Positions 5,236-27,564 of a DNA stretch of 35,722 bases are shown here, one piece after another. The number at the start of each line of letters is the position of its first letter. Positions within the stretch are counted from its first letter, which is position 1. The position numbers and the translations under genes were made by a program. Origin of the DNA: Coriobacteriales bacterium (GTDB lineage Bacteria; Actinomycetota; Coriobacteriia; Coriobacteriales; UBA8131). The notes beneath the pieces are model-generated. The model had not been told where the DNA came from, ran no database searches, and was given only the letters and a program-made list of their open reading frames with translations. Location: NCBI GenBank assembly GCA_031263025.1, contig JAISGO010000008.1, positions 1-35,722 of the forward strand, written 5' to 3'.

Positions 5236-6102
5236 ATGTCCAAGTCTATGCGCAGATCGGCTTTTGGTATCGTCCTAGCCGCCTTACTCGCTTTCAGCCT
5301 CTGCTTCTTGAGCGCCTGCGGCAGCAGTTCGAGCAGCAGTGACAATGCCGCCACGCCAACCAGTACCACCCCTGGCACCATCCAGATCTTCGCCGCCAAC
5401 TCCCTCCAGAAGGCCCTGCCCCTGGTGCAAGCCCTCTACACCCAGCAGCATCCTGATGTGAAATTCGCTGACACCCAGTTCAAGGGCTCGGGTGACCTGG
5501 TCAGCGAACTCCAAGGCGGCGCCAAGGCCGATCTTTTGATCTGTGCCAGCGAGTCTTCGATGGACACTGCCAATACCAATGGTTCGATCGAGGCCAACAC
5601 CCGCAAGGATATGTTCACAAATGACCTGGTGATCGCCGAGAAGACCGGCGCGGGCTATAAGATCAACTCCCTCAAGGACGTGGAGAGTGCCAAATACGCC
5701 AAGATCGCGATCGGCCAAGGTGCGGCGGTGCCGGCCGGGGCCTATGCCAACCAGGCCCTCAACACGATCGGCCTCTACAGCGCAGCCGATGGCAAGACCG
5801 GCAGCTATAGCGCCGACTTCGCCAGCAAGGTGGTGCAGGACTCCTCGGTCGGTAATGTCGCCCAGCACGTCCAATCCGGCGACTGCCAGATCGGCTTCGT
5901 CTACACCAGCGACATCTACCGCTATCCCGGCATCCAGGTCGCCTATAAAGTACCGGCCAACACCCACAAAGCCATCGTCTACCCGGGCGCGGTCTGCACT
6001 GGCAGCGTCAATGCCCAAGCCAGCCAGGATTTCCTCAATTTCTGCCTGACTAACGCCCAAGCCCAGAAGATCTGGTCTGAGTACGGCTTCGCCGTCAAGT
6101 AA
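5236..6102 (+). CDS. modA: Molybdate ABC transporter, substrate-binding lipoprotein
   Basis: A 288-aa extracytoplasmic solute-binding protein. The lipoprotein signal peptide ends in LSA-C28, so the mature protein is anchored to the outer face of the membrane by a lipidated cysteine; a Ser-rich linker follows. ModA family features are IFAANSLQKALP (the oxyanion-binding loop), FKGSGDLVSELQGGAKADLLICAS, the TNDLVIAEK block, GQGAAVPAGAYANQAL, and the C-terminal tail SQDFLNFCLTNAQAQKIWSEYGF. It binds molybdate (perhaps tungstate) and passes it to ModB. AAAGGA lies 6 nt before the ATG. It is the first gene of modABC, upstream of a molybdoenzyme locus. Confidence 0.95.
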   Translation: MSKSMRRSAFGIVLAALLAFSLCFLSACGSSSSSSDNAATPTSTTPGTIQIFAANSLQKALPLVQALYTQQHPDVKFADTQFKGSGDLVSELQGGAKADLLICASESSMDTANTNGSIEANTRKDMFTNDLVIAEKTGAGYKINSLKDVESAKYAKIAIGQGAAVPAGAYANQALNTIGLYSAADGKTGSYSADFASKVVQDSSVGNVAQHVQSGDCQIGFVYTSDIYRYPGIQVAYKVPANTHKAIVYPGAVCTGSVNAQASQDFLNFCLTNAQAQKIWSEYGFAVK

Positions 6103-6138: not shown

Positions 6139-7623
6139 GTGACTGGATATCGGATAGGTCACCCCTTTCGCTTCGGCTTTGCGCTCGCCTTTCTGGCGAG
6201 CGCTTTGCTGTGCGCGATGTTGCTACCAAAAGTAGCGGCCGCCGCAGGCGCCGATTCGCCCCTGACCCTTGCGGCGGACGGCAGCTCAGCCAGCTACCAG
6301 GGCTGGGATCTGGCCGCGACTGGCTTCATGCGCGCCAACAGCGGCACGCATAAGGTCACGACTTTGGCCGATGGTAAGCAGGCTAATCCAGGCTATCGCT
6401 ACCCAGTGTCAGCAAAAGGCGCTCTCTGCGCCGTGGTGAGCGGTACTGCCGTGATCGTCTACCTGCCTGCTGCAAGCGCCCAACTAAGTCGGACGTCGGA
6501 TGGGGCCACCCATTCTGGGAAGGCCGACCAGAAGCCTTCGGCCAAGGCACTCAGTGATTTTGAGCAAACAGCCCTCAAGGCCACCCTCGAGGGTCTTGAT
6601 GGGGCGGCTAGCTCGGCGACTAGCCTTCAGAGCCTGGGCTTGCCCTTTGTCTTCACGGATGCCCAGCGTTTTCGCTATCACGGACTGACCTGTCTTTTCG
6701 ACCAACAAGTCGAAGCCGGGAGCTACTATGTGGTGCTCAAAGGGAGCGCATCCGATCTCGAACAAGTCCAGTTCGTTGACAGTTGCTTGCTTGAGCCAGC
6801 CGCCCAGGTGCAGGTGGCGCCAGCCCCCACCGGCCCGGCGGCCCTAGGGGCTTTCCTCAGCAGTGTCGATTTGCGTCCGCTTTGGGTCTCCTTACGCACT
6901 TCTTTGGCAGCTTTGGTGCTTATTTTCGTCCTAGGACTGCTCGCGGCCAAATTGACCCTGCGTGTGCGCCATCGCTTGCGCGCTGTCCTTGACTCGCTCT
7001 TCACTATCCCGATGGTGTTACCGCCGACCGTCTGCGGTTTCCTCTTGCTGGTGGTCTTCGGCAACTCCACCCCTTTCGGGCGCTGGCTGGAGGTCCATGG
7101 CATCGAATTGGTCTTCACCTGGCCTGCGGCGGTGTTAGCGGCCACCGTGGTCGGCTTTCCGCTGATGTTTCGCACCGTGCGCGGCGCTTTCGAGAGCCTC
7201 GATGCCAATCTCTTCGCGGCCGCCCGCACCCTGGGTTGGGGTGAATGGCGCATCTTCCTGCGTTTGATGTTGCCCTTAGCTTGGCCCTCGATCGCAGCGG
7301 GCACGGTCTTAGCCTTCGCCCGCGCCTTAGGCGAGTTCGGTGCCACCCTGTTCGTGGCCGGCAATTACGCCGGCGTCACCCAGACCATCCCGATCGCCCT
7401 CTACTATGATTGGATGGGTGGGGACTCCCTTACTGCAGTCTTTTGGGTTGTAGTTATTATATTGATATCTTTTGTGGTAATCGCTCTGATCAACTGGTAT
7501 GCCAGCCACAGCCAAAAATGGATGCGCCCGGCGCTTAGCGGCTCTGATCTGCTTCCCCTAAAAAAACCAGCCCAGACTCTGGCCGCCAGCCCGATAAAAA
7601 AGCAGGCTCCAGATGGGCATTAA
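6139..7623 (+). CDS. modB: Molybdate ABC transporter permease with a large N-terminal extracytoplasmic domain
   Basis: A 494-aa protein; normal ModB is about 220-230 aa. Residues 10-35 are a signal peptide or first membrane segment. Residues about 36-235 are a hydrophilic region that I do not recognise, with three cysteines, predicted outside the cell. The ModB domain follows from about residue 240, with several membrane helices. It has the EAA loop (AARTLGWGEWRIFLRLMLP, about residues 358-377) that contacts ModC, and the typical ARALGEFGATLFVAGN block. The GTG start has AGGAGA about 15 nt upstream, which is a long spacing; no better in-frame start is seen. The last 11 nt overlap modC. The extra domain might bind or gate access to ModA; this is unknown. 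Confidence 0.9.
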   Translation: MTGYRIGHPFRFGFALAFLASALLCAMLLPKVAAAAGADSPLTLAADGSSASYQGWDLAATGFMRANSGTHKVTTLADGKQANPGYRYPVSAKGALCAVVSGTAVIVYLPAASAQLSRTSDGATHSGKADQKPSAKALSDFEQTALKATLEGLDGAASSATSLQSLGLPFVFTDAQRFRYHGLTCLFDQQVEAGSYYVVLKGSASDLEQVQFVDSCLLEPAAQVQVAPAPTGPAALGAFLSSVDLRPLWVSLRTSLAALVLIFVLGLLAAKLTLRVRHRLRAVLDSLFTIPMVLPPTVCGFLLLVVFGNSTPFGRWLEVHGIELVFTWPAAVLAATVVGFPLMFRTVRGAFESLDANLFAAARTLGWGEWRIFLRLMLPLAWPSIAAGTVLAFARALGEFGATLFVAGNYAGVTQTIPIALYYDWMGGDSLTAVFWVVVIILISFVVIALINWYASHSQKWMRPALSGSDLLPLKKPAQTLAASPIKKQAPDGH

Positions 7624-8314
7624 AGTCGACATCCACAAGCATCTACCAACCTTCGACCTCGACGTGCGGTTTGAGGCGGGCGACGAGTGTTTGGGCTTGT
7701 TCGGGCCCTCGGGGGCAGGCAAGAGCTTTACCCTGCGCTCCATCGCCGGGATAGAGACGCCAGACCGGGGCCGAATCGAGGTGGACGGGCGCGTTTTCTT
7801 CGATTCGCAGCAAGGCATCAACCTCAAGGCCCGCGAGCGCAAGTGCGCCCTGCTCTTCCAGGACTACATGCTCTTTCCCAATCTCACGGTGGCTGATAAC
7901 ATCTGCGCCGGCCTGCCCCGCCAGGTCGGCAAAGAGCAGCGCCACCAGATCGTCAAAGAACAGCTCGAGCGCTTCGATCTGGCAGGTTTCGGCCGTCGCT
8001 ACCCGGCTAGCCTCTCCGGCGGCCAGCGCCAGCGGGTGGCGGTGGCGCGGATGTTGGCCGCAGCTCCACCGATCCTGATGCTGGACGAGCCATTCTCTGC
8101 CCTTGACTCCGACCTCAAGATCAGCTTGGCCACCGATCTCCAGCGGCACTTCCATGAGTTTGACGGCACCATCCTCTACGTCTCGCACGATGTCGAGGAG
8201 GTGCTGCTCTATTGTGATGACGTGGCCATCATCAAAGACGGCAAGGTCTGCCAGTTCGGGCTGGGCCGCGACATCCTCAAGGTGCCACCCCGTTTAAGCG
8301 AACTGCGTCTGTAA
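7613..8314 (+). CDS. modC: Molybdate ABC transporter ATP-binding protein (short ModC)
   Basis: A 233-aa ABC ATPase. Walker A is GPSGAGKS (residues 31-38), followed by the Q-loop LFQDYMLFP, the signature LSGGQRQR, Walker B ILMLDEP with FSALD, and the H-loop VSHD. The GPSGAGKS-x-TLRSIAG and FPNLTVADNI blocks are typical of ModC and related oxyanion importers. ModC of E. coli type is about 350 aa with a C-terminal MOP/TOBE domain that senses molybdate; here the protein ends right after the nucleotide-binding domain. It overlaps modB by 11 nt in another frame, showing translational coupling. It energises uptake through ModB at the inner face of the membrane. Confidence 0.93.
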   Translation: MGIKVDIHKHLPTFDLDVRFEAGDECLGLFGPSGAGKSFTLRSIAGIETPDRGRIEVDGRVFFDSQQGINLKARERKCALLFQDYMLFPNLTVADNICAGLPRQVGKEQRHQIVKEQLERFDLAGFGRRYPASLSGGQRQRVAVARMLAAAPPILMLDEPFSALDSDLKISLATDLQRHFHEFDGTILYVSHDVEEVLLYCDDVAIIKDGKVCQFGLGRDILKVPPRLSELRL

Positions 8315-8628: not shown

Positions 8629-9930
8629 ATGAACGCAAACGCTTCGGGGGGCCTGAAATTGTCCAATTTGATTGGCATTTTCGCCCTCTTCTCTTTTATG
8701 GCGGAGTTCACCATCATGACCCCGTCTATCCAGGCCTTTGCCATGCACTTCCATGACACGGACATGACCACCATCATGTTGGCCAACACCATCACCGGTG
8801 TGGTCGGGGTGCCGATGTCGATTCTGGCTGGCTGGCTGGTGAATAAGATCGGCTACCGGCCGATGGGTATCATCGGGGCGATCGTGATGATTGTGGCAGG
8901 GGCCTTCCCCTTCCTTTTCCCGGGTTTGCAGGAATACTGGCCGATCATCTTCTCCCGGGTCATGGTCGGGGTCGGCTACGGCATGATCTTCCCCCTCGGT
9001 GGGGCTTTGATCATCCTCTTCTATAAAGGGCGCCAGCGCTCGCGCTATCTCGGTGTCGGCGTGATGGTGCAATTCGCCTTCGCCATCCTCTTCTCCCTGG
9101 TGGCCGGCTGGCTGACCACCATCGGCTGGAACTTCAGCTTCCTTACCTATCTGATCAGCGTTGTCCCGCTGGTCCTCTTGATCTTCCTCCTGCCTGAGGG
9201 TAAGAAGCTCTCGATCGAGGACGCCAAGGCCAAGGCGGCGCTCAAGGCCAACGCCCCGAAGGCGAAGATCCCCGGCGCTACCTGGGGCTACATCGTGGTC
9301 TTTGGCTTAGTCATGTGGATGATGTACATTGTGGTCAACTTCTTGTCCTCGATCATCTTGGGCGAGCGTGGCATCGGCGACGCGGCGGCGGCTGGCGTGA
9401 TGGCCTCCTGCTTCAATCTTGGCAACGTAGTCGCCGGCCTGCTTTTCTCGAAATCGATCCAGCTGCTCAAGAGCAAGGTCTTCGGCGTGGCCGGTTTGGT
9501 CGCAGCGATTGGCTTAGCCTGCGCCTATATCGCACCGAGTGTGCTGGTCTATGGCATCGCAGCCTTCTTGATCGGCCTTGGCGGTTCGACCGTCTATACT
9601 TCGGCCCAGAACTCCGTCGGCAACATCACTCCCAAGGCCAAGGTGCCCCTGACCAACGGTCTTTTGACAGCAGCGATGAACCTGGCGAGCTTCTTCGTGG
9701 CCTACTGGCTGGTGCTCTGCACGGGTATCGCGCCTGTCTTCGGTGGCGCGGCGGCCTTGGTGGTCGGCGCCATCTGTGTGGCAGTCGTCTCAGTTGTATG
9801 CATCTTCATCCCCTTCAAGGCAATCCGTAAGGGCTTGGGCAAACAGCCTACCGATGCCCTTGACGAGGCCGAGGAGGGTTTGGATGTGATGGGTGAGGCC
9901 AGCCAAGACCAAGTCGCTGAGCTTGCCTGA
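8629..9930 (+). CDS. Major facilitator superfamily transporter linked to the molybdoenzyme
   Basis: A 433-aa protein with about 12 hydrophobic helices. The cytoplasmic loop 2-3 motif is present in variant form (AGWLVNKIGYRPMG, an MFS motif A of type G-x-L-x-D/N-x-x-G-R/Y). FSRVMVGVGYGMIFPLGGALIILFYKGRQRSR is also typical MFS. The central cytoplasmic loop is rich in Lys/Ala. I start it at the ATG at 8629, which has GAAAGGAAGG 8 nt upstream; the frame is open further upstream but lacks a ribosome site. The gene is 91 nt before the molybdopterin enzyme on the same strand, so it probably moves that enzyme's substrate or product. The substrate cannot be read from the sequence. Confidence 0.88.
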   Translation: MNANASGGLKLSNLIGIFALFSFMAEFTIMTPSIQAFAMHFHDTDMTTIMLANTITGVVGVPMSILAGWLVNKIGYRPMGIIGAIVMIVAGAFPFLFPGLQEYWPIIFSRVMVGVGYGMIFPLGGALIILFYKGRQRSRYLGVGVMVQFAFAILFSLVAGWLTTIGWNFSFLTYLISVVPLVLLIFLLPEGKKLSIEDAKAKAALKANAPKAKIPGATWGYIVVFGLVMWMMYIVVNFLSSIILGERGIGDAAAAGVMASCFNLGNVVAGLLFSKSIQLLKSKVFGVAGLVAAIGLACAYIAPSVLVYGIAAFLIGLGGSTVYTSAQNSVGNITPKAKVPLTNGLLTAAMNLASFFVAYWLVLCTGIAPVFGGAAALVVGAICVAVVSVVCIFIPFKAIRKGLGKQPTDALDEAEEGLDVMGEASQDQVAELA

Positions 9931-9943
9931 TAATCGGTAATCG

Positions 9944-9983
9944 GTGAACCGCCGGTCATACGGCAAATGGGCCGGCGGTTCAC
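9944..9983 (+). promoter_or_regulatory. Strong intercistronic hairpin between MFS gene and molybdoenzyme
   Basis: GTGAACCGCCGG (9944-9955) pairs perfectly with CCGGCGGTTCAC (9972-9983) over a 16-nt loop. No T-run follows, so it is not a classic terminator. It could adjust relative expression by stabilising mRNA ends or by partial termination. It ends 38 nt before the next start codon. Confidence 0.7.
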
Positions 9984-10021
9984 GTAGCAAGGGGTTGATA
10001 ACCCTCAGAAAGGAGCTCCTC

Positions 10022-12685
10022 ATGAGCGAGAAGCCTTTGACCAAGTTGCCGGACAACATGCCCAACGGCTATGTTGACGAAGAAGGGGTAACTTGGAAGT
10101 ACACCCATTGTTTCATGTGCCATATGGCCTGCCGGGTGATGGCCGGCGTCAACCAAGAGGGCAAGGTCTGCGAGATCCGCAACGTCGATGGATCGACTCT
10201 CTGCGACCGCCTCGGCCATCGTGGTGAGAACGCGATCAAACAGCATTATCACCCCAAGCGGATCAATCACGCCCTTAAAAGGGTCGGGCCCAAGGGCACT
10301 AACCAGTTCGAGGAGATCTCCTACGACCAGGCCTTAGACGAGATCAGCGCCAAGCTTGATGAGCTCAAGGCCAAGTATGGCCCGGAGACCCTCTGCATCG
10401 CCGAGGGCACCTACCGCTCCGATCACATGTGGGCGCGTAGCCGTTTCTCCAATCTTTTCGGCAATCCTGGCAATATCATTGACCCCGGCACCATCTGCTG
10501 GTGCTACACCTACACCGTCAATATGTCAATGGTCGGCTGGCCGATCGAGACTACTCTGCCGATGACCGTGCCCTACTCCAACTGCATCGTGATCTGGGGT
10601 ATCCGCCCAGACGAGAAATGCGACAAGCAGGGGCCGCTGTGGAAGGCCTTACGTGCCGCGCTTGACCGCGAGGGCGAGAAGCCTAAGTTGATCGTGGTCG
10701 ATCCGGTGGCGATCTCGCTGGTCCAAGAGGCTGATCACTGGATCTGCATCAAACCCGGTACTGACCTCTACATGCAGATGACTTGGGTCGGTCACATCAT
10801 CAAGAACAAGCTCTATGACGCGGATTTCGTGAAAGACTACACTAATGCGCCGTTCCTGGTAAAGGCGAGCGACAACATACTTGTCCGTGGTTGCGACATC
10901 GACAAGGATGGCAAGTACGAGGATTTCGTGGCTTGGAATGATAAGACCGGCGCCCCGGCGATCTGGTGTTCCGACGAGAACCACTATTATGATGCCGAGG
11001 TCGACGCTCCAATCGAGGGAACGCATAAGATAAAGTTGGCCGACGGCTCCGAGATCGAGGTGCGTACCGTCTTCGACGCCATCGCCGAGCGCGCGGTGGA
11101 GTACACCCCGGAGAAAGCCGAACAGGTCTGCGGTGTGCCGGCGCGCATCACCCAGGCGGCGATCGAGACCTATGCCACCACCAAGCCCGGCTGCATCGCT
11201 TGGGGTATCGGCGGCGGTGACGGCGAGGGCCCCAACGCACATGGTACCACCATCGCCAAGACCCTCCTGCGTTGTTTGACCGGCAACATCGACATCGTCG
11301 GTGGCGAGTATATCGCGGTGCCCGGCCCGATCGGTCCAAATGGTGAGAAGCTCTTCCCGGTGCGCGACTCCGAGTTGGAGATCCCCGATACCGTCAAGCC
11401 CGAGATCCGCAAGAAGTTCCTCGGCAACGACCAGTTCAGGATCATGAGCTGGGAGGCCTTCGAGAAAGGCGACGCCGTTTTCAAGAAGAACCTCCACATC
11501 AACCGTCCCCAGCAGCACCAGATGTTGGTCAGCCCGCCGGTTTGCTGGAAAGCGATCGAAGAGCATGACCCTTACCCGGTGACGGCGATGATTTGTTATA
11601 CCTCCAATCCTTTGATCTGGGCCCCCAATACCAAGCACGTCTACAATGCGATGAAGAAGCTCGAGTTGTTGGTGGTGCTCGACTATTGGAAGACCCCGAC
11701 GGCGGCGATCGCCGACTATATCCTGCCGGCAGCTGATTGGTTGGAGCGTCCCTATGCTTCGACGGTCGAGGACTCGCTGGACTTCTTCGACGGTGGCGAC
11801 CGGGTGGTGCAGCCGCTCTATGACCGCCATCTCGACTATGACTTCTTCCGCGAGCTCGGCATCCGCCAAGGCCAAGCCGAACAGTGGCCTTGGGAGACCT
11901 ATGAGGATCTGATCAAATACCGGATCGAGCGGGTCGGTTGGGACTATGATTCTTTCATGACCGCAGGCTCGATCCCACCGGTGGACGGCTTCCGCGAACA
12001 GAAGTATCTGGATGACCTGCCCAATGGCCAAAAACGCGGTTTCGTCACCCAGTCCCGCAAATGCGAGCTGATCCCCTCGATCATCCAAGAGTGCGGCTAT
12101 GACCCGATTCCCGAGTACGTACCGATGCCGGAGAGCGAGCAGGGTTCGCCTGAGCTGCTCAAGGACTACCCCTTGGTGCTCACCACCGGTGGCCGCTTCA
12201 CCCCGATGTACCATTCCGAGCAACGCGTGCCTGGTTATGGCAACCGTTCCCAGTTCCCCGATCCCCTGGTCAAGATCAACATGCATGACGCCAAGATCTA
12301 TGGTATCCGCCAGGGCGAGAATGTCTGGATCGAGACCCCGCGTGGTCGTATCATGATGAAGGCTTGGCTGGGTTGGGACCTGCCCCGCGGCACCGTGCAG
12401 GCCCAGGCCTCTTGGTGGATGCCGGAGTTGCCGGCTGAGGAGCCCTGGAGCCAAGGCCTCTTCATCTCCAACGCCAACGTCTTGACTGACGATAAGATCG
12501 AGGACCTCGATGAGTGCACCGGGACCTGGACCACGCGTGGCCTGCTCTGCAAGATCTATCCCTGCGTCGATCCCTGGGATCGCTCTGACACCTCTGAGGA
12601 CCTCGACAGCTACATCGCTTCGGGCGGCGGCGTCTGGAAAGGCATCTACGAGAACATCGATCCCAACGTGCACGGCGAAAAATAA
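10022..12685 (+). CDS. Cytoplasmic Mo/W-bisPGD enzyme, acetylene hydratase / catechol dehydroxylase-like
   Basis: An 887-aa DMSO-reductase-superfamily enzyme. Its N-terminal [4Fe-4S] ligands are Cys30, Cys33, Cys37 and Cys61. Cys159 (TICWCY) is the likely metal ligand. The middle region has the family's dinucleotide-binding blocks, for example DYILPAADWLERP. The C-terminal domain (TTGGRFTPMYHSEQR, VWIETPRGR, LFISNANVLTDD, LLCKIYPC) resembles acetylene hydratase and related pyrogallol/catechol enzymes. There is no twin-arginine signal, so it is cytoplasmic. The Asp before the third cysteine that acetylene hydratase needs is absent here (CHMAC), and the ligand Cys is followed by Trp, not the His of formate dehydrogenases. 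With the next-door MFS transporter and ferredoxin this resembles gut catechol dehydroxylase loci; substrate unknown. AAAGGAG lies 7 nt before the ATG. Confidence 0.85.
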   Translation: MSEKPLTKLPDNMPNGYVDEEGVTWKYTHCFMCHMACRVMAGVNQEGKVCEIRNVDGSTLCDRLGHRGENAIKQHYHPKRINHALKRVGPKGTNQFEEISYDQALDEISAKLDELKAKYGPETLCIAEGTYRSDHMWARSRFSNLFGNPGNIIDPGTICWCYTYTVNMSMVGWPIETTLPMTVPYSNCIVIWGIRPDEKCDKQGPLWKALRAALDREGEKPKLIVVDPVAISLVQEADHWICIKPGTDLYMQMTWVGHIIKNKLYDADFVKDYTNAPFLVKASDNILVRGCDIDKDGKYEDFVAWNDKTGAPAIWCSDENHYYDAEVDAPIEGTHKIKLADGSEIEVRTVFDAIAERAVEYTPEKAEQVCGVPARITQAAIETYATTKPGCIAWGIGGGDGEGPNAHGTTIAKTLLRCLTGNIDIVGGEYIAVPGPIGPNGEKLFPVRDSELEIPDTVKPEIRKKFLGNDQFRIMSWEAFEKGDAVFKKNLHINRPQQHQMLVSPPVCWKAIEEHDPYPVTAMICYTSNPLIWAPNTKHVYNAMKKLELLVVLDYWKTPTAAIADYILPAADWLERPYASTVEDSLDFFDGGDRVVQPLYDRHLDYDFFRELGIRQGQAEQWPWETYEDLIKYRIERVGWDYDSFMTAGSIPPVDGFREQKYLDDLPNGQKRGFVTQSRKCELIPSIIQECGYDPIPEYVPMPESEQGSPELLKDYPLVLTTGGRFTPMYHSEQRVPGYGNRSQFPDPLVKINMHDAKIYGIRQGENVWIETPRGRIMMKAWLGWDLPRGTVQAQASWWMPELPAEEPWSQGLFISNANVLTDDKIEDLDECTGTWTTRGLLCKIYPCVDPWDRSDTSEDLDSYIASGGGVWKGIYENIDPNVHGEK

Positions 12686-12909
12686 TGTGTTATCGGCCAC
12701 AGACCGAGCGGATGTTCAAGCAGCACATCCAGGTGGACGCTGAGGTCTGTGTGCTTTGTGGGCGTTGCGTGGAGCTGTGTCCGCGCAACGCCTTAGGAGC
12801 CGACACAGAAGGTATCGTGGTCGACGATGCCCTCTGTGTCGGCTGTCTGCTTTGTGAGATGCGCTGTCCGATGCAGGCGATCTCCCATATCAACCAGCGT
12901 CTCTTCTAG
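12685..12909 (+). CDS. 2x[4Fe-4S] ferredoxin-like electron-transfer protein
   Basis: A 74-aa protein with two CxxCxxCxxxC motifs: Cys22, 25, 28, 32 and Cys51, 54, 57, 61, each followed by Pro (ELCP, MRCP). The ATG at 12685 overlaps the TAA stop of the molybdoenzyme by one base (TAATG), which implies translational coupling and a shared job. An in-frame ATG at 12712 is an alternative start that would give 65 aa beginning just before the first cluster. It most likely donates electrons to the upstream enzyme as a non-membrane electron subunit. No membrane anchor or NAD-binding domain is present. Confidence 0.92.
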   Translation: MCYRPQTERMFKQHIQVDAEVCVLCGRCVELCPRNALGADTEGIVVDDALCVGCLLCEMRCPMQAISHINQRLF

Positions 12910-13082: not shown

Positions 13083-13672
13083 ATGGTTGACGTTAAGATG
13101 AATCCGCCTAAGGATTACACGGCCAAGCTGCGTTTCGTGTCGGCTTTAGACGCGTTGTTGCAAGAGAGAAGTTTTGATGACGTCACGGTCAAGATGATCG
13201 CCGAGCAGGCGGGTTTGACCAGGCCCACTTTCTACCGCTATTTCACTGATAAATACGCGGTGATCCAGTGGCACTCCGACATCATCGCCAAGAGGGTATC
13301 TTCCAAATCGGGCGCAGCCTGAACTGGCGCGATGGCTACAAGATATCCTTGATCGGGCATTGGAAATGTCGTCATCTCTACACTAAGTCAGCGGCTGCCC
13401 ATGGTTATCAATCGCTTTCCCGTTACACCGAACGGGCCAGACGTAAGAACCTGATCGAGACGGTAGCTGACTTCCGCAGATGTGAGCTCAGCCATAGCCT
13501 GCTCATCCAGATCAAGGCCCTCGCGATCTCTGAAACCACTTTGGTGATGCGCTGGATGCGTGACAATATGGACGAGAGCGTAGATGAGATCCGGGACGGT
13601 CTGGTCAGTATCGTCCCACATCAGCTGTTCCTGCTCCTGGATAAGCCATTTATGCCAACATCGCCTCGCTGA
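13083..13672 (+). pseudogene. TetR/AcrR-family regulator with a -1 frameshift
   Basis: Frame 1 from 13083 gives a TetR DNA-binding domain (residues 13-63) with the helix-turn-helix VTVKMIAEQAGLTRPTFYRYF-like core and DKYAVIQWH, then stops at 13322. Another frame continues the C-terminal part without a break: RQEGIFQIGRSLNWRDGY through RRKNLIETV to SIVPHQL, ending at 13672. The two join at AGAGGGTATC (13291-13300): one extra G in the GGG run would restore a single protein of about 196 aa. The total length (590 nt) is one base short of a multiple of three. It is a recent inactivation, a sequencing error in a G-run, or less likely real frameshifting, since no slippery heptamer is seen. It follows the molybdoenzyme operon and may have regulated it. 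GGGAGG lies upstream of the ATG. Confidence 0.85.
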
Positions 13673-13747: not shown

Positions 13748-14617
13748 ATGGATTTAATCTCCTTTGTCATAGCTTTGGTCGCTTTCGCCCTGGTGGCGCC
13801 CTTTTTGGGCGGCCTGATTAAAGGGGCAGACCGGATTATCACGGCGCGTATCCAAGACCGGGTGGGGCCGCCGCTGTTGCAGCCTTTCTACGATGTGCAG
13901 AAGCTCTGGGCTAAGCAGTCCAAACCGGTCAATGATTTCATCGGTTTCTATGTCCTGATGTCGCTTATCTTCGCGATCTTGGCCGGCGCTTTCTTTTTCG
14001 CTGGGGGCAATTTCTTAATGGTGGTCTTCGTGTTGACCTTGTCGGCACTCTTCTTCGTGCTGGCCGCGTTCTCGGCGCGTTCGCCCTACGCCGATGCCGG
14101 AGCCTCGCGTGAGATCATCCAGGTGGCCGCTTATGAGCCCCTGGTGATCCTGATGGCGGTGGCTTTCTACCTGGCCAGCCATAGCTTTAATATCTCGGTC
14201 AGCGCGACTCTGGAGAAGCCTCTGATCTGCGAGATCCCGTTGATCTTTTTGGCCCTGCTCTTCGTGCTCACCATCAAGCTGCGCAAGTCACCTTTTGACC
14301 TGAGCGTCGCCACCGAGGCACACCAAGAGCTGGTTAAAGGTGCCATCACCGAGTTCTCCGGGCGCACTTTGGCCCTCTATGAGGTGATGGAGTGGTATGA
14401 GTCGGTGCTCTTCCTAGGCTGGGTCGGCCTTTTCTTCGTCTTCTCGGCGGGGTGGTCGTGGTTTTTGGCGCTGGGCTGCGTGATCGTGGTCTATTTCCTG
14501 GAGATCATGATCGACAACAACTTCGCCCGGGTCAAGTGGCAGGCCATGTTCAAGTGGTCGTGGCTGGTCACCTTGGTGCTCGGCTTCATCAACCTCTTCG
14601 CCCTGTATTGGATATGA
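13748..14617 (+). CDS. echB: Ech hydrogenase subunit B (NuoH/HyfC-like membrane subunit)
   Basis: A 289-aa membrane protein with about eight hydrophobic helices, homologous to complex I NuoH. Conserved blocks are KGADRIITARIQDRVGPP (residues 25-42), SPYADAGASREIIQVAAYEP, and SPFDLSVATEAHQELVKG with the following TEFSG. These acidic loops line the junction between the quinone-site-like region and the ion channel. In Ech it anchors the hydrogenase module to the membrane and takes part in ion translocation. The gene opens echBCDEF. A TAGAGT hexamer (13737-13742) lies 5 nt before the ATG and no clear ribosome site is present, so a leaderless start is possible. Confidence 0.92.
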   Translation: MDLISFVIALVAFALVAPFLGGLIKGADRIITARIQDRVGPPLLQPFYDVQKLWAKQSKPVNDFIGFYVLMSLIFAILAGAFFFAGGNFLMVVFVLTLSALFFVLAAFSARSPYADAGASREIIQVAAYEPLVILMAVAFYLASHSFNISVSATLEKPLICEIPLIFLALLFVLTIKLRKSPFDLSVATEAHQELVKGAITEFSGRTLALYEVMEWYESVLFLGWVGLFFVFSAGWSWFLALGCVIVVYFLEIMIDNNFARVKWQAMFKWSWLVTLVLGFINLFALYWI

Positions 14618-14627
14618 GGTGCCTCTG

Positions 14628-15074
14628 ATGTCTTCAACGAGTAAATCCCCCTGGGTCATCCATTATGATGCTTCGAGCTGCAACGGCTGCGACATCGAGG
14701 TGCTGGCCGCGTTGACCCCGCTTTATGACGTCGAGCGTTTCGGGATCGTCAATACCGGCAATCCCAAACACGCCGATATCTTCCTGGTCACCGGCTCGGT
14801 CAATGACCGCTGCCGTCCGGTCATCCAGCAGATCTATGATCAGATGCTCGAGCCCAAAGTAGTGGTGGCAGTGGGGGCTTGTGCCTGTACCGGTGGAGTC
14901 TTCCGTGATTGCTACAACATCGAGGGAGGCGCTGACAGCGCGATCCCGGTCGACGTCTATGCACCCGGCTGCGCGGTGCGCCCTGAGACCATCATCGACG
15001 CCGTGGTACAGGGTTTGGGCATACTCGAACAGAAACGGGCCGCCCTCAAGGCCGCCAAGAAAGCGAAGCGATGA
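14628..15074 (+). CDS. echC: Ech hydrogenase small subunit (NuoB-like)
   Basis: A 148-aa NiFe-hydrogenase small subunit of the short, complex I-like type. It binds the proximal [4Fe-4S] cluster: CNGC (Cys18, Cys21), GACACTGG (Cys85, Cys87) and PGCAVRPE (Cys115). It has no signal peptide. I chose the ATG at 14628, which has GAGGT 7 nt upstream, over the GTG at 14619, which itself overlaps that site. It lies 10 nt after echB, and its stop overlaps echD by 4 nt (ATGA). It passes electrons between EchF and the NiFe site in EchE on the cytoplasmic side. Confidence 0.94.
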   Translation: MSSTSKSPWVIHYDASSCNGCDIEVLAALTPLYDVERFGIVNTGNPKHADIFLVTGSVNDRCRPVIQQIYDQMLEPKVVVAVGACACTGGVFRDCYNIEGGADSAIPVDVYAPGCAVRPETIIDAVVQGLGILEQKRAALKAAKKAKR

Positions 15075-15628
15075 TGTCAGAGACTGATACCAAGAAAGCC
15101 TCGGCCAAACCCGCCGCGCCGGCGGCAGAGCCCTTTCAGCATCCGGCCCGCGCCCAGCAGCCGGAGCATTTTCGCGCCTCTGCCCCCGACCAACTCATCG
15201 GCGAAGCCAAGCGCTATCAGGAGGCCGGTTGGCGTTTCGTCAATATCTGTGGCTCGACCACGATCGATGGCATCGAGCTGCTCTATTCTTTCGGCCGCAT
15301 GGAAGAGCTGGAGAATCTGACCATGATCGTCCAGGTCGGCGATACGGTGCCTTCGATCTCACCGGTCTTCGAGAATGCCTTCTTCTTCGAAAACGAGACC
15401 CAGGATCTCTACGGCATCCATTTCGAGGGCCTGATCCTGGATTATAAGCAGAAATTCTACGGTCCGGTCGAGGCGCATCCGATGGCGCATAATATCCAAG
15501 TCATCGAGCGCAAACAGAAGGCCGCCGCGGCTGCGGCCAAAGCGTCGCCCGAACAAACCGGGAGCGCCAGCGCTGCGGGGACGGACCCGAGTGGCACAGC
15601 AAGCCAGCAGAAGGGCGGTGAGGCATAA
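15071..15628 (+). CDS. echD: Ech hydrogenase subunit D (NuoC-like) with low-complexity tails
   Basis: A 185-aa protein. The central part (about residues 40-145) is NuoC-like: AGWRFVNICGSTTIDGIELLYSF, then FFFENETQDLYGIHFEG, the family's most conserved stretch. The first 35 residues (Ala/Pro/Gln-rich) and last 40 residues (Ala/Lys then Ser/Gly/Gln-rich) are low complexity and not typical of EchD. It links the small and large subunits in the peripheral arm. The start is ATGATG at 15071, overlapping the echC stop; either ATG could serve. The stop overlaps the echE start (TAATG). Confidence 0.88.
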   Translation: MMSETDTKKASAKPAAPAAEPFQHPARAQQPEHFRASAPDQLIGEAKRYQEAGWRFVNICGSTTIDGIELLYSFGRMEELENLTMIVQVGDTVPSISPVFENAFFFENETQDLYGIHFEGLILDYKQKFYGPVEAHPMAHNIQVIERKQKAAAAAAKASPEQTGSASAAGTDPSGTASQQKGGEA

Positions 15629-16716
15629 TGGCTGATCGTACGGTCATTCCTTTCGGGCCGCAGCACCCGGTGCTGCCGGAGCCGATCCACCTTGACCTCT
15701 ACGTCGAGGACGAGAAAGTGGTCGAGGCAGTACCCCAGCTCGGTTTCGTCCATCGTGGCCTGGAGAAGCTGGTGGAAAAGCGCGACTTCCAACAATATGT
15801 CTATGTCTGTGAGCGTATCTGTGGAATCTGCTCTTTCGGCCATAGTTTGGGTTATTGCCAGACGGTGGAGCTGTTGATGGGCCTGGAAGTGCCGCCACGG
15901 GCGGAATTTCTACGGGTGATCTGGCACGAGCTCTCGCGGATGCATTCACATATGCTCTGGATGGGGCTTCTGGCCGATGCTTTCGGTTATGAGAACCTTT
16001 TCATGCAGACCTGGCGCCTGCGTGAGCGGGTGCTCGATATCTTCGAGCAGACCACCGGCGGCCGGGTAATCCTCTCGGCCACCTGTGTGGGCGGGGTTAA
16101 CCAAGATATCTCCAACGAGGATCTGCGTGGCATCTGCGACGTCCTCGACCGCATGCGGAGTGAGTTCCAGACCCTGATCAACACTTTCTTGAAAGACCAG
16201 TCGGTGAAAAGCCGTCTGGTCGGGGTCGGGTATATCTCCAAACAAGAGGCACATGACTTCGCCATGGTCGGGCCTTTCGCAAGGGCCTGTGGTATCGCCG
16301 AGGACGTGCGCTGCTATGGCTATGACGCTTATGGGGCCTTGGCGGATTTCCAACCGATCGTTTCCGACCAAGGTGATGGTTGGGCCCGCTGCATGGTGCG
16401 CGCCGAAGAAGTGCTCCAAGCCATCGATATCATCAAGGAGCTGGTCGAGAAGATCCCGGACGGGCCGATCTCGATGAAGGTAAAGGGGCGTCCGGCTGAG
16501 GGAGCTCAGGCGACCAGTCGCTTGGAACAGCCACGCGGGGAATGCTTCTACTACGCCCGTGGCAACGGGACCAAGTTCTTGGAGCGTTTTCGCATCCGCA
16601 CGCCCACTTCGCAGAGCATCGCCGGCATGGTGCACACCCTGCAGGGCTGCGACTTAGCCGACGTCGCCCTTAACGTCTTGACTATCGATCCTTGTATTAG
16701 CTGTACAGAGAGGTGA
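15628..16716 (+). CDS. echE: Ech [NiFe] hydrogenase large subunit (NuoD-like)
   Basis: A 362-aa catalytic subunit. Both nickel-binding pairs are intact: RICGIC (Cys65, Cys68, with His72 beyond) and, at the extreme C-terminus, DPCISCTER (Cys356, Cys359). This distinguishes it from complex I NuoD, which lacks them, and marks a true group 4 hydrogenase. The rest is NuoD-like: PQHPVLPEP, LGFVHRGLEKL, and HSHMLWMGLLADAFGYE. The protein ends directly after the arginine where other NiFe large subunits are cut, so no maturation protease step is needed. It reduces protons to H2 or oxidises H2 with ferredoxin electrons. TAATG overlap with echD. Confidence 0.96.
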   Translation: MADRTVIPFGPQHPVLPEPIHLDLYVEDEKVVEAVPQLGFVHRGLEKLVEKRDFQQYVYVCERICGICSFGHSLGYCQTVELLMGLEVPPRAEFLRVIWHELSRMHSHMLWMGLLADAFGYENLFMQTWRLRERVLDIFEQTTGGRVILSATCVGGVNQDISNEDLRGICDVLDRMRSEFQTLINTFLKDQSVKSRLVGVGYISKQEAHDFAMVGPFARACGIAEDVRCYGYDAYGALADFQPIVSDQGDGWARCMVRAEEVLQAIDIIKELVEKIPDGPISMKVKGRPAEGAQATSRLEQPRGECFYYARGNGTKFLERFRIRTPTSQSIAGMVHTLQGCDLADVALNVLTIDPCISCTER

Positions 16717-16720
16717 TCCG

Positions 16721-17083
16721 ATGGGCTTTCGTTTAGGCGCCATGTCCTTGCGCAATTTGTTCACCAAGCCGGTGACCAAGATGTACCCAGAGGTGCAGCC
16801 CCAGTTCCCGCCGGCCTTGAAGGGCGAGATCGCCAATGACATCAAGCTCTGTATCTTCTGTAGCACCTGTGTGGTGAAGTGTCCGGCTGACGCATTGAAA
16901 GTCGATAAGACTGCCGGGACTTGGGCGATTGATCGCTTTGCCTGCGTCCAGTGCGGATCATGCGTGCGCGCCTGTCCCAAGAAGTGCCTTAGCATGGAGG
17001 TGCGCCTGCCTAAGCCTGCCACTCAGATGAGTGAATTGGTGATGCACCGGCCTGAGCCAGAACCCGAGGTCAAGGCAGCCTAG
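16721..17083 (+). CDS. echF: Ech hydrogenase ferredoxin-type subunit (NuoI-like)
   Basis: A 120-aa protein with two [4Fe-4S] motifs: Cys44, 47, 50, 54 and Cys75, 78, 81, 85, each followed by Pro or a Lys-rich helix. The N-terminus (MSLRNLFTKPVTKMYP) is the usual EchF/NuoI membrane-proximal segment. It accepts electrons from soluble ferredoxin and passes them to EchC. It starts 4 nt after echE with AGAGGTGA overlapping the echE stop. The last 20 residues are acidic and Pro-rich. It is the last gene of this cluster; the sixth subunit, EchA, is 6 kb downstream. Confidence 0.95.
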   Translation: MGFRLGAMSLRNLFTKPVTKMYPEVQPQFPPALKGEIANDIKLCIFCSTCVVKCPADALKVDKTAGTWAIDRFACVQCGSCVRACPKKCLSMEVRLPKPATQMSELVMHRPEPEPEVKAA

Positions 17084-20389: not shown

Positions 20390-20800
20390 ATGATATTATT
20401 AATACTTATGAAATCAGGTAAACACGAACTAATAATTCACATAAACATAAACCCATATCCCCAGCAGCATGAGATACATGCAGCGGCTATGCTGGCTGAA
20501 TATTTTGACTGTGACGTGCAATTTATCCAGCGTAAAATCAACGCCAAAACGCTAGATTTGCTGATAAAGGGAATACGATGGGAAATCAAAAGCCCAAAAG
20601 GCAATGCCAAGAATACGATTGATAATAACCTGCGCAAAGCCAATAGACAGTCTCAATATGTCGTTATTGATTTAAGCAGAACCAAGATGCGCGCCTACCA
20701 AGCTAAAGCGAGGATAAACGCTTTCTTGCGAGAAGGATCTACGAAATTCAAACGCATCTTGCTGATAAATAAATCCGGCAAAGTGCTTGAAATCCTCTAA
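20390..20800 (+). CDS. Orphan CdiA_C-type PD-(D/E)XK-like protein (AT-rich, probably acquired)
   Basis: A 136-aa protein. The core resembles the C-terminal nuclease domain of CdiA contact-dependent toxins. Asp56 (KTLDLLI), then Glu65 and Lys67 (RWEIKSPKG) form a D...ExK active site. An NTIDNNLRKANRQSQYVVIDL helix-strand with Asp94 follows, and the end is RILLINKSGKVLEI. No secretion or large CdiA part is attached, so it is a stand-alone domain. The region is much richer in A and T than its neighbours, which suggests transfer. No ribosome site is visible; an in-frame ATG at 20408 is equally possible and sits 8 nt after a TATTAT hexamer. No immunity gene is recognised next to it, but a hairpin follows immediately. 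Function unknown. Confidence 0.68.
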   Translation: MILLILMKSGKHELIIHININPYPQQHEIHAAAMLAEYFDCDVQFIQRKINAKTLDLLIKGIRWEIKSPKGNAKNTIDNNLRKANRQSQYVVIDLSRTKMRAYQAKARINAFLREGSTKFKRILLINKSGKVLEIL

Positions 20801-25269: not shown

Positions 25270-27564
25270 GTGCGTGTGACACGAAAATCCAATTGTGCCT
25301 ACTGTGGCTATTATTGTGGTTTCGATTGTGAAATCGAAGTCGAACAAGATGGCCATGAACGCCTGGTCGGCCTGCAACCAGACACGAGTCGCTACCCTTA
25401 TGCCGAACGTATCTTCAAGAGCTGTCGGCGTTGGCGCCTCAATCTTTCCGATATCGATAGCCCGCGGCGTCTCAATTATCCCCTTAAGCGGATCGGCGCT
25501 ACCCGTGGTCAGCTAGGGCGCTGCGGCTTGGAGGTCGGCTCTAAGCTCGCTCTTGGCGCTGATGACGGACAATGGCAGCGCATCTCCTGGTCACAGGCGC
25601 TCGCTGAGATTGCGCAGCGCTTTGACCAACTGCGCCAGCGTTATGGCGCTGCGACTTTGGCTTCGGCCATTGGCGGCCCCCATGCTAGTTTCTGGCCCCT
25701 GCACCGTCTGATGACCCTTTTCGGATCGCCCAACAATATGGGTATCGGCCAGATCTGCTGGAACATCCGCATTCTGATGGATGCCCAGACCTATGGCTGG
25801 CCGATCGAGGTCGAAATTGACCCACAGGTGAGCGGACAGGTCCTGCTTTGGGGGACTAATCCGGCAGTCAGCGACAATTCGGAGTTCTGGCGGCGGATTT
25901 TAGCCCTGCGTCCGGCTGGCGTGCCCCTGATCGTGGTCGATCCGCGCCAGACCCAGACCGCCAAACGGGCCGACCTGCATCTGCAGTTGCGTCCCGGTAG
26001 TGATGTAGTCTTGGCCCTGGCCCTGATCCGCGAGCTGCTCGAGCAGGGCCTATACGACCAGTCTTTCGTAGAGCGTTGGTGCCTTGGCCTGGCAGAGCTG
26101 CGCGCGATGGTCGCGCCCTACACCCTTGATCGTGCGTCGTTGCTCTGCGACCTGCCGGCCGCCCAAATCGCAGAGGCGGCCCGCTTGATCGCCCATGCCC
26201 CGGATGCCCACCCGACTGCCCTTTTGACGGGGCGGGGCATCGATGAGCTTGGTCCCAACACCGCTCCCACCCACAAGGCCATCTCTATCCTGCGCGCCCT
26301 GCTCGGCGATGTGGACAAGGCCGGGGGCTGCGCCATCATGGACACCTCTGACTTCACAGAGGAGCTCGACCTCGAATACAGCGAGCGGATGAGCCCGGAG
26401 TGCAAGGCTGCCCAGCTGGGCCATAACAGTATCCAGAGCTATGCCGGCTACGAGCAGATGCGCACCCAGACCAGTAAGATTGAGGGCAAGCGGTTGCCGA
26501 TGCGTTATCTGACCAGTGCCCATCCTAACTTGGTCTGGCGGGCGGCATTGGGCCAGGGCCCCTATCGGGTCAGTGCGCTGCTGATCGAGGCCACCAATCC
26601 GCTGCTCACCTACGCCGACGCCAATCTGGTCGAGCGGGCTTTCGCGGCCCTTGACACGATCGTCTGCCTTGAGCAAAGGCTCAGCCACAGCGCCCAGTTT
26701 GCTGACTATTTATTGCCAGCGGCAGGCGCCATCGAGCGCCCTCTTTGGCAGATGCATGGTGGGGTCTCTAATTTCTGTTATGGCGGTGCGCGCGCGGTCA
26801 AGCCTTACTACGAGCGCAAATGTGACTATGAGATCCTGCGTGGCCTGGGCTTGGCGCTGGGCCAAAGTGAGGCCGATTGGCCGGATGTGAGCCTTGATGA
26901 GGCGATCGAGAGGGCCTTGGCGCCGACTGGTATGAGCTACCAGCAATGGAGCGAGGTCGGCATGTACTACGGGTCTGGGCGCTACGCTAAGCAAGAGCTG
27001 CCGGACGCCCAGGGTAGCCCCCGGGGCTTTGCCACTGCTTCGGGCAAGATCGAATTTACCCCCCTGCCCCAGCCTGACCTCGGGCTCCTAGGAAAACTTT
27101 ACCCAGAGCTGGAGGATAGCCTGGGCCTTTTCACGGGTAGAGCCGAAGATGAATCCTGCAAAGAAGGCCTGTCCGAGGCCGGCCGAGAGGCCTGTCCAGG
27201 ACTCCCTGGCCGACCCTATATCCTTCTCACTGGCGCCCGGATGCAGCCTTTCTGGGCTTCTTCTTTCCATGACGTCCCGGCTTTTCAGGCCGAGCATCCT
27301 CAGGCCCTGGTGCAGATGTCGGCAGCCACCCTGGCTGAGATCGGAGTGGCCGAAGGCGCACAGCTGCGTCTGAGCACGGCTAAGGGCAGTGCGGTTTTTA
27401 CCACCCAGGTGGCGGCGATTAAAGACGGAGTGCTCTCGGCCGAATACGGTTGGCCTGATCCTGCTAATATCAACCGTCTGACTTCTGCCGATTATGAGGA
27501 CTGCGAGCCCCAGATCGGCTCATGGATCTATGATGGGCTTCCGGTCTGGGTCGAGCCGGTTTGA
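25270..27564 (+). CDS. Second Mo/W-bisPGD enzyme, behind echA; substrate unknown
   Basis: A 764-aa DMSO-reductase-superfamily enzyme with no signal peptide. The [4Fe-4S] ligands are Cys9, Cys12, Cys16 and probably Cys52. Cys163 (GQICWN) is the likely Mo/W ligand, followed by Trp as in the protein at 10022, not by the His of formate dehydrogenases. Shared blocks include YGWPIEVEI, LIVVDPRQTQTAKRADLHL, DYLLPAAGAIERP, and a C-terminal domain from about residue 640. A Glu/Gly-rich insert (residues 605-640) separates the last two domains. The start is GTG with GGAGG 7 nt upstream. The 48-nt gap to echA and shared strand suggest one operon, so its electrons may run through the Ech complex. It is not a clear formate dehydrogenase; the reaction is unknown. 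Confidence 0.82.
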   Translation: MRVTRKSNCAYCGYYCGFDCEIEVEQDGHERLVGLQPDTSRYPYAERIFKSCRRWRLNLSDIDSPRRLNYPLKRIGATRGQLGRCGLEVGSKLALGADDGQWQRISWSQALAEIAQRFDQLRQRYGAATLASAIGGPHASFWPLHRLMTLFGSPNNMGIGQICWNIRILMDAQTYGWPIEVEIDPQVSGQVLLWGTNPAVSDNSEFWRRILALRPAGVPLIVVDPRQTQTAKRADLHLQLRPGSDVVLALALIRELLEQGLYDQSFVERWCLGLAELRAMVAPYTLDRASLLCDLPAAQIAEAARLIAHAPDAHPTALLTGRGIDELGPNTAPTHKAISILRALLGDVDKAGGCAIMDTSDFTEELDLEYSERMSPECKAAQLGHNSIQSYAGYEQMRTQTSKIEGKRLPMRYLTSAHPNLVWRAALGQGPYRVSALLIEATNPLLTYADANLVERAFAALDTIVCLEQRLSHSAQFADYLLPAAGAIERPLWQMHGGVSNFCYGGARAVKPYYERKCDYEILRGLGLALGQSEADWPDVSLDEAIERALAPTGMSYQQWSEVGMYYGSGRYAKQELPDAQGSPRGFATASGKIEFTPLPQPDLGLLGKLYPELEDSLGLFTGRAEDESCKEGLSEAGREACPGLPGRPYILLTGARMQPFWASSFHDVPAFQAEHPQALVQMSAATLAEIGVAEGAQLRLSTAKGSAVFTTQVAAIKDGVLSAEYGWPDPANINRLTSADYEDCEPQIGSWIYDGLPVWVEPV

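Follow-up and report, generated by a model that had tools for sequence, protein, structure and literature searches.

A cytoplasmic molybdenum enzyme with a ferredoxin partner in a Coriobacteriales bacterium falls outside the known catechol dehydroxylase types

Introduction

Cytoplasmic molybdenum enzymes of gut Coriobacteriia are usually called catechol dehydroxylases on the basis of the genes that surround them. The locus described here raises the question of whether an enzyme with such neighbors also belongs to one of the known dehydroxylase families. Characterized enzymes from this class of bacteria fall into two clades (PMC11887054). Gordonibacter-type enzymes (Dodh, Eadh1-3, Gp Hcdh, and Vadh) are cytoplasmic, carry no Tat signal, and have been described in company with an MFS transporter and a small Fe-S partner protein (PMC7028382, PMC12771579). 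They lack the Fe-S motif that is present in Eggerthella-type enzymes (PMC11574389), which include Dadh, Hcdh, and Cadh and are Tat-exported, membrane-anchored proteins of ~1000 aa.

The window, by which we mean the whole 35.7-kb contig (C23) analyzed from a 1.39-Mb genome that is 89% complete, encodes a transporter, a molybdenum enzyme, and a ferredoxin in one compact unit. A preliminary description of this DNA had proposed a catechol-dehydroxylase-like locus. That proposal holds for the architecture, with its MFS protein, cytoplasmic enzyme, and ferredoxin, and fails for family membership, as judged by phylogeny, cluster motif, partner protein, and sequence identity.

Organization of the locus

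The features of the unit and its immediate surroundings are as follows.

5236..6102, + strand: modA, molybdate-binding protein, context for cofactor metal supply (TIGR01256, 114.6 bits; cut-off 62.5)
6139..7623, + strand: modB, molybdate permease with a long N-terminal extension (TIGR02141, 219.6 bits; cut-off 182.6)
7613..8314, + strand: modC-like ATPase of the molybdate transporter, overlapping modB (best model TIGR02142, E=1e-54, under its cut-off)
8629..9930, + strand: MFS transporter that may import or exchange the substrate (PF07690, E=2e-30)
9944..9983, + strand: perfect 12-bp inverted repeat (9944-9955/9972-9983), an RNA stem-loop between the transporter and enzyme genes
10022..12685, + strand: Mo-bisPGD oxidoreductase, 887 aa, cytoplasmic (PF00384, PF01568)
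12685..12909, + strand: 2x[4Fe-4S] ferredoxin, 74 aa (two Fer4 motifs)
13083..13672, + strand: TetR-family regulator gene with one frameshift near 13290, read as ORFs 13083-13322 and 13268-13672 (PF00440, E=4e-12, first ORF)

The three central genes of the preliminary description were confirmed at these positions. The native start of the enzyme has no twin-arginine motif (MSEKPLTKLPDNMPNGY), and the ATG of the two-cluster ferredoxin gene shares a single base with the TAA of the enzyme gene. The inverted repeat upstream of the enzyme encloses a 16-nt loop within a region whose predicted fold reaches -40.6 kcal/mol (z=-2.7). No T-run follows it, and it is a possible mRNA processing or expression-balance element. 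When Rfam was searched for leader elements such as a Moco riboswitch, a tRNA was the sole match, and a sigma-70 promoter scan of the region found none.

The modABC genes lie directly upstream of the unit. Downstream, an Ech-like [NiFe] hydrogenase (13748-17083) comprises NuoH-, 20 kDa-, 30 kDa-, 49 kDa-, and ferredoxin-like subunits, with no antiporter subunit adjoining; its large subunit retains both Ni-binding CxxC motifs. Because neither set of genes was seen near the corresponding cassette in its two closest relatives (L024 and L025, discussed below), we treat them as context rather than as members of the unit. Intact homologs of the split TetR gene are found near the cassette in the same two relatives. 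The frameshift near 13290 could be either a real inactivation or an assembly error.

Several other features of the window were observed. An [FeFe] hydrogenase A6-like fragment occupies positions 13-771, and a lone ORF at 20390-20800 carries a CdiA C-terminal-type domain (PF18451). Between 23131 and 27564, a gene for a proton-antiporter-family protein precedes one for a second bisPGD enzyme (25270-27564), which has a CAYCGYYC motif and Cys-Trp at the metal. Homologs of this second enzyme in Gordonibacter and Ellagibacter (L074 and L071) have no antiporter homolog in the stretches examined.

Fold and active site of the enzyme

The preliminary description had noted a C-terminus like that of acetylene hydratase, and the comparison with solved structures bears this out. 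Among all PDB chains, the best sequence match is acetylene hydratase from Pelobacter acetylenicus (2e7z), which aligns with the C-terminal half at E=1e-79; the runner-up reaches 7e-40. An AF2 model of the enzyme (pLDDT 87, pTM 0.89) likewise has acetylene hydratase as its top Foldseek match, with a TM score of 0.90 on target length and an rmsd of 3.0. Perchlorate reductase and ethylbenzene dehydrogenase are the second-best fold matches and come far behind. By sequence, the enzyme also weakly resembles two reductases, those of thiosulfate/polysulfide and of perchlorate.

For acetylene hydratase we use the published site numbering: cluster ligands Cys9/12/16/46, metal ligand Cys141, and catalytic Asp13. 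The two proteins share the Cx2Cx3C cluster motif, and in the alignment Cys30/33/37/61 of the window enzyme correspond to the four [4Fe-4S] ligands, Cys159 to the metal ligand, and Trp394 to the retained Trp293. The remainder of the site differs. The missing hydration Asp of the preliminary description is indeed replaced, with His34 (CFMCHMAC) at the position of Asp13, where the 19 clade members examined all have His, Ser, or Asn. Ile113, Ile142, and Trp472 are changed to Tyr131, Trp160, and Glu583, and these three substitutions are invariant in the same 19 proteins. The enzyme also lacks Trp179, carries an insertion of ~70 residues (276-350), and has a ferredoxin partner. With Asp13 replaced by His34 and the pocket rebuilt in this way, hydratase chemistry is unlikely.

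Dodh and Eadh also have His at the Asp13 position. This residue does not single out dehydroxylases, since Dadh has Lys. In formate dehydrogenase, Cys or Sec is followed by His at the metal. The window enzyme has Cys159-Trp160, and thus the absence of this pair from the enzyme, as first noted from the sequence, is upheld.

Pyrogallol transhydroxylase and resorcinol hydroxylase are, like the window enzyme, bisPGD enzymes, and they act on polyhydroxybenzenes. The profile comparison with this pair gives a weak match (61 bits), and their metal ligand is Ser (PMC10100899) in place of Cys159.

Placement among reference enzymes

To place the enzyme relative to proteins of established function, we matched published primers to genomes. 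The two qPCR primers for Dodh (PMC7028382) both pointed to its gene in Gordonibacter pamelaeae, and the four for Dadh all pointed to one gene of an Eggerthella-group genome. Eadh1-3 were located by synteny with the amidohydrolase Eah (PMC12771579); the individual Eadh numbers are tentative. A FastTree phylogeny of 126 proteins and an IQ-TREE phylogeny of 85 proteins agree. In these trees, the two published clades of characterized enzymes are represented by Dodh and Eadh for one and by Dadh for the other.

Dodh, Eadh1-3, and dozens of Gordonibacter and Ellagibacter paralogs form a single clade with 100/100 support, and the window enzyme lies outside it. Dadh groups with other Tat-bearing enzymes elsewhere in the tree. 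The enzyme is therefore outside both known catechol dehydroxylase types, contrary to the affiliation that had been proposed. Nor did the trees place it with the nitrate, formate, polysulfide, or arsenate enzymes, the groups named in advance as speaking against a dehydroxylase. Its own clade has 34 members in the larger tree and 100% bootstrap support in a 19-member subset. Members at 49-55% identity come from Gordonibacter, Ellagibacter, Raoultibacter, Slackia, and Deltaproteobacteria, with Geomonas and Desulfosarcina represented, and the human-gut strain Gordonibacter sp. 28C has three copies. A search of four Eggerthella-group genomes found no clade member (best 34%), and the literature searched gave no reported function for any protein of the clade.

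In the FastTree phylogeny, the window enzyme and acetylene hydratase fall within one group of 59 members (support 1.0), but IQ-TREE gives this grouping just 59.5/53, and the branching order of acetylene hydratase, the window clade, and the Dodh clade is poorly supported. Identity to characterized Dodh, Eadh, and Dadh, the references covered by this comparison, is 24-29% (24-28% for the Gordonibacter type and 28% for Dadh), under the 30% cut-off applied in the field to such enzymes (PMC11585353).

Two candidate assignments were rejected along the way. Membership in the Dodh family was ruled out by locating Dodh and Eadh and then building the trees, and the primer match for Dodh ruled out the notion that the Gordonibacter relatives at 50-55% identity are Gordonibacter-type enzymes.

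As a separate observation, the closest Gordonibacter relatives of acetylene hydratase itself (L103 and L140) keep the catalytic Asp (CDGGC/CDGRC), and L103 also keeps Trp179 and Trp293. These two proteins are possible real hydratases in gut bacteria.

Cluster motif and partner protein

Sequence features beyond the trees distinguish the same groups. The N-terminal CxxCxxxC motif is present in 33 of 34 members of the window clade, the exception being a protein that starts late, compared with none of the 53 proteins in the Dodh/Eadh clade. No member of the window clade has a twin-arginine motif. Partner genes were counted with motif patterns, which miss divergent proteins such as the Eadh partners. 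By this measure, a dicluster ferredoxin is encoded within 1.5 kb of 24/31 window-clade members and 0/53 Dodh/Eadh-clade members, whereas a CxxCHxCExxC partner accompanies 0/31 and 42/53, respectively.

The enzyme thus resembles the Gordonibacter type in its occurrence in Coriobacteriia, its cytoplasmic location, the adjoining Fe-S partner and MFS genes, the Cys metal ligand, and the His after the second cluster Cys, but differs in cluster motif, usual partner, and clade. With the Eggerthella type it shares bisPGD, the N-terminal [4Fe-4S] motif, and the Cys ligand, yet the unit lacks both a Tat signal and an anchor gene. Because it is cytoplasmic and nonetheless carries the Fe-S motif, it is of neither type. 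Its affinity is with the uncharacterized bisPGD clade, which has the same motif and mostly the same dicluster ferredoxin.

Neighborhoods of relatives

The two closest clade members, L024 and L025, are orthologs with 77-79% identity to the window enzyme, and together the three proteins form a branch apart within the clade, accompanied by an MFS transporter particular to it. Orthologs of the window transporter (65-67% identity) were found only beside this enzyme in L024 and L025. The ferredoxin has 42% identity to its counterpart in L024; the L025 contig stops 345 bp past the enzyme gene. This conservation of transporter and enzyme across species shows that the unit is not a chance set of ORFs. 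Both relatives correspond to MAG records (Cf509 and Gx485) and, judging from the record names, are probably from termite gut; the gut bacterium that carries the window probably comes from a termite as well.

In L024 and L025, the transporter-enzyme cassette lies ~300 bp from, and divergent to, a genuine Gordonibacter-type enzyme, which comes with an Fe-S partner of its own and with a TetR gene that is a homolog of the window copy. This neighboring enzyme is 81% identical between the two. The back-to-back arrangement supports a role for the cassette in phenol metabolism better than any other evidence, but it is known from two species only and is absent from the window. The window genome does have a genuine Gordonibacter-type enzyme with its partner, on a different contig (G000 contig 43).

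Other Coriobacteriia members of the clade adjoin genes for large LuxR-type regulators. Small Cys-rich proteins that start with MCFRP or MCFN and have zinc-ribbon-like motifs and Gly/Pro-rich tails also recur near clade members (L030, L031, L037, and others).

Deltaproteobacterial members have a different setting. There (L039, L041, L042, L043, and L052), the homolog is in a conserved operon that also encodes PDH-like E1 alpha/beta and E2 components, a dicluster ferredoxin, another bisPGD enzyme, and proteins of the SDR and M24 families. The window unit lacks the PDH-like genes, and no published description of the operon was found in the literature searched. Its content suggests a catabolic, perhaps aromatic, pathway, which leaves room for an oxidative role of the homolog.

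Proposed function and competing explanations

We propose that the window enzyme is a cytoplasmic, ferredoxin-driven reductase that acts on a phenol of plant origin, probably by dehydroxylating it, and that it represents a third architecture beside the two known types. We give this reading a probability of roughly 45%, or somewhat below even odds. That the enzyme works like a dehydroxylase is our best guess; that it is a catechol dehydroxylase of a known family is not supported. According to this proposal, the MFS protein would bring a small plant-derived aromatic compound, probably a phenol, into the cell, and ModABC would supply molybdenum to the cytosolic enzyme. The dicluster ferredoxin would pass low-potential electrons to the [4Fe-4S] cluster of the enzyme and then to the Cys159-bound Mo-bisPGD center, where most likely a C-OH bond would be cleaved reductively, with His34 perhaps serving in place of the hydratase Asp. 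TetR would regulate the unit, although the window copy of its gene is broken or misassembled. The dedicated ferredoxin argues for redox rather than hydration chemistry, and the arrangement in L024 and L025, together with the analogy to catechol dehydroxylases, points to the C-OH bond of a phenol as the bond cut. The adjoining modABC and Ech-type hydrogenase genes fit with molybdenum supply and a reduced-ferredoxin economy. Against the proposal stand the Deltaproteobacterial operon, which looks catabolic rather than respiratory, and the lack of specificity of His at the Asp13 position for dehydroxylases.

Resorcinol hydroxylase and ethylbenzene dehydrogenase are bisPGD enzymes that act oxidatively on their own substrates, and when Azoarcus degrades resorcinol anaerobically, bisPGD enzymes work together with a ring-cleaving complex that is PDH-like. 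By extension, the window enzyme could carry out the first catabolic step for an aromatic or other organic compound, oxidizing or hydroxylating it anaerobically and delivering the electrons to ferredoxin. The Deltaproteobacterial operon, with its PDH-like E1a/E1b/E2 genes, SDR, M24-family protein, and additional bisPGD enzyme, favors such a role, as do the second-best fold matches, perchlorate reductase and ethylbenzene dehydrogenase. We nevertheless consider it unlikely, since those folds score far behind acetylene hydratase and the cassettes of the window, L024, and L025 are flanked only by transporter, ferredoxin, and regulator genes, with no catabolic genes. Reduction of some other acceptor, such as an inorganic oxyanion, a sulfur compound, an N- or S-oxide, or a corticoid-like alpha-hydroxyketone, appears still less probable. 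The similarities to thiosulfate/polysulfide and perchlorate reductases that would suggest it score far under the match to acetylene hydratase, and oxyanion reductases are not usually found in the cytoplasm. A molybdenum-dependent corticoid 21-dehydroxylase does occur in Eggerthella and Gordonibacter (PMC11574389); the window enzyme is unlikely to share that identity because its clade is absent from the four Eggerthella-group genomes.

The closest solved relative is a non-redox enzyme, and retention of the residues equivalent to Cys141 and Trp293 would suit a hydratase, dehydratase, or hydroxyl-transferase whose substrate is a small phenol or unsaturated compound; the ferredoxin would then serve only to keep the metal reduced. 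Such chemistry is quite improbable given the loss of Asp13 in all 19 clade members examined, the replacement of most of the hydrophobic pocket, and the dedicated dicluster ferredoxin in 24 of 31 members. The original suggestion of a genuine Gordonibacter-type catechol dehydroxylase with a new substrate agrees with the published gene arrangement of transporter, Tat-less enzyme, and small ferredoxin (PMC7028382), with acetylene hydratase being the best PDB relative of both the window enzyme and Dodh, and with the shared His in these proteins and Eadh. It is largely refuted by the position of the enzyme outside the 100%-supported Dodh/Eadh1-3 clade, by the Fe-S motif that is absent in 53/53 proteins of that clade, by the different partner and low identity, and by the presence of a true member elsewhere in the same genome.

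Implications

What the window enzyme has in common with catechol dehydroxylases is its neighborhood; its family, cluster motif, and partner protein are not shared, and its branch is separate and well supported. The clade might constitute a third, unrecognized type of ferredoxin-driven aromatic reductase that extends from Coriobacteriia of the human gut and of termites to Geobacter- and Desulfosarcina-like bacteria. Its target would then lie beyond the reach of the known catechol dehydroxylases, either as a different substrate, such as a polyphenol from lignin or humus, or as a different bond, such as a C-O bond outside catechols. This broader view is more doubtful than our proposal of a phenol reductase. 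A working expression host exists for Gordonibacter, which makes the question testable now. If the enzyme is a reductase, it would widen the known ways in which gut bacteria, including those of insect guts, use plant phenols as electron acceptors.
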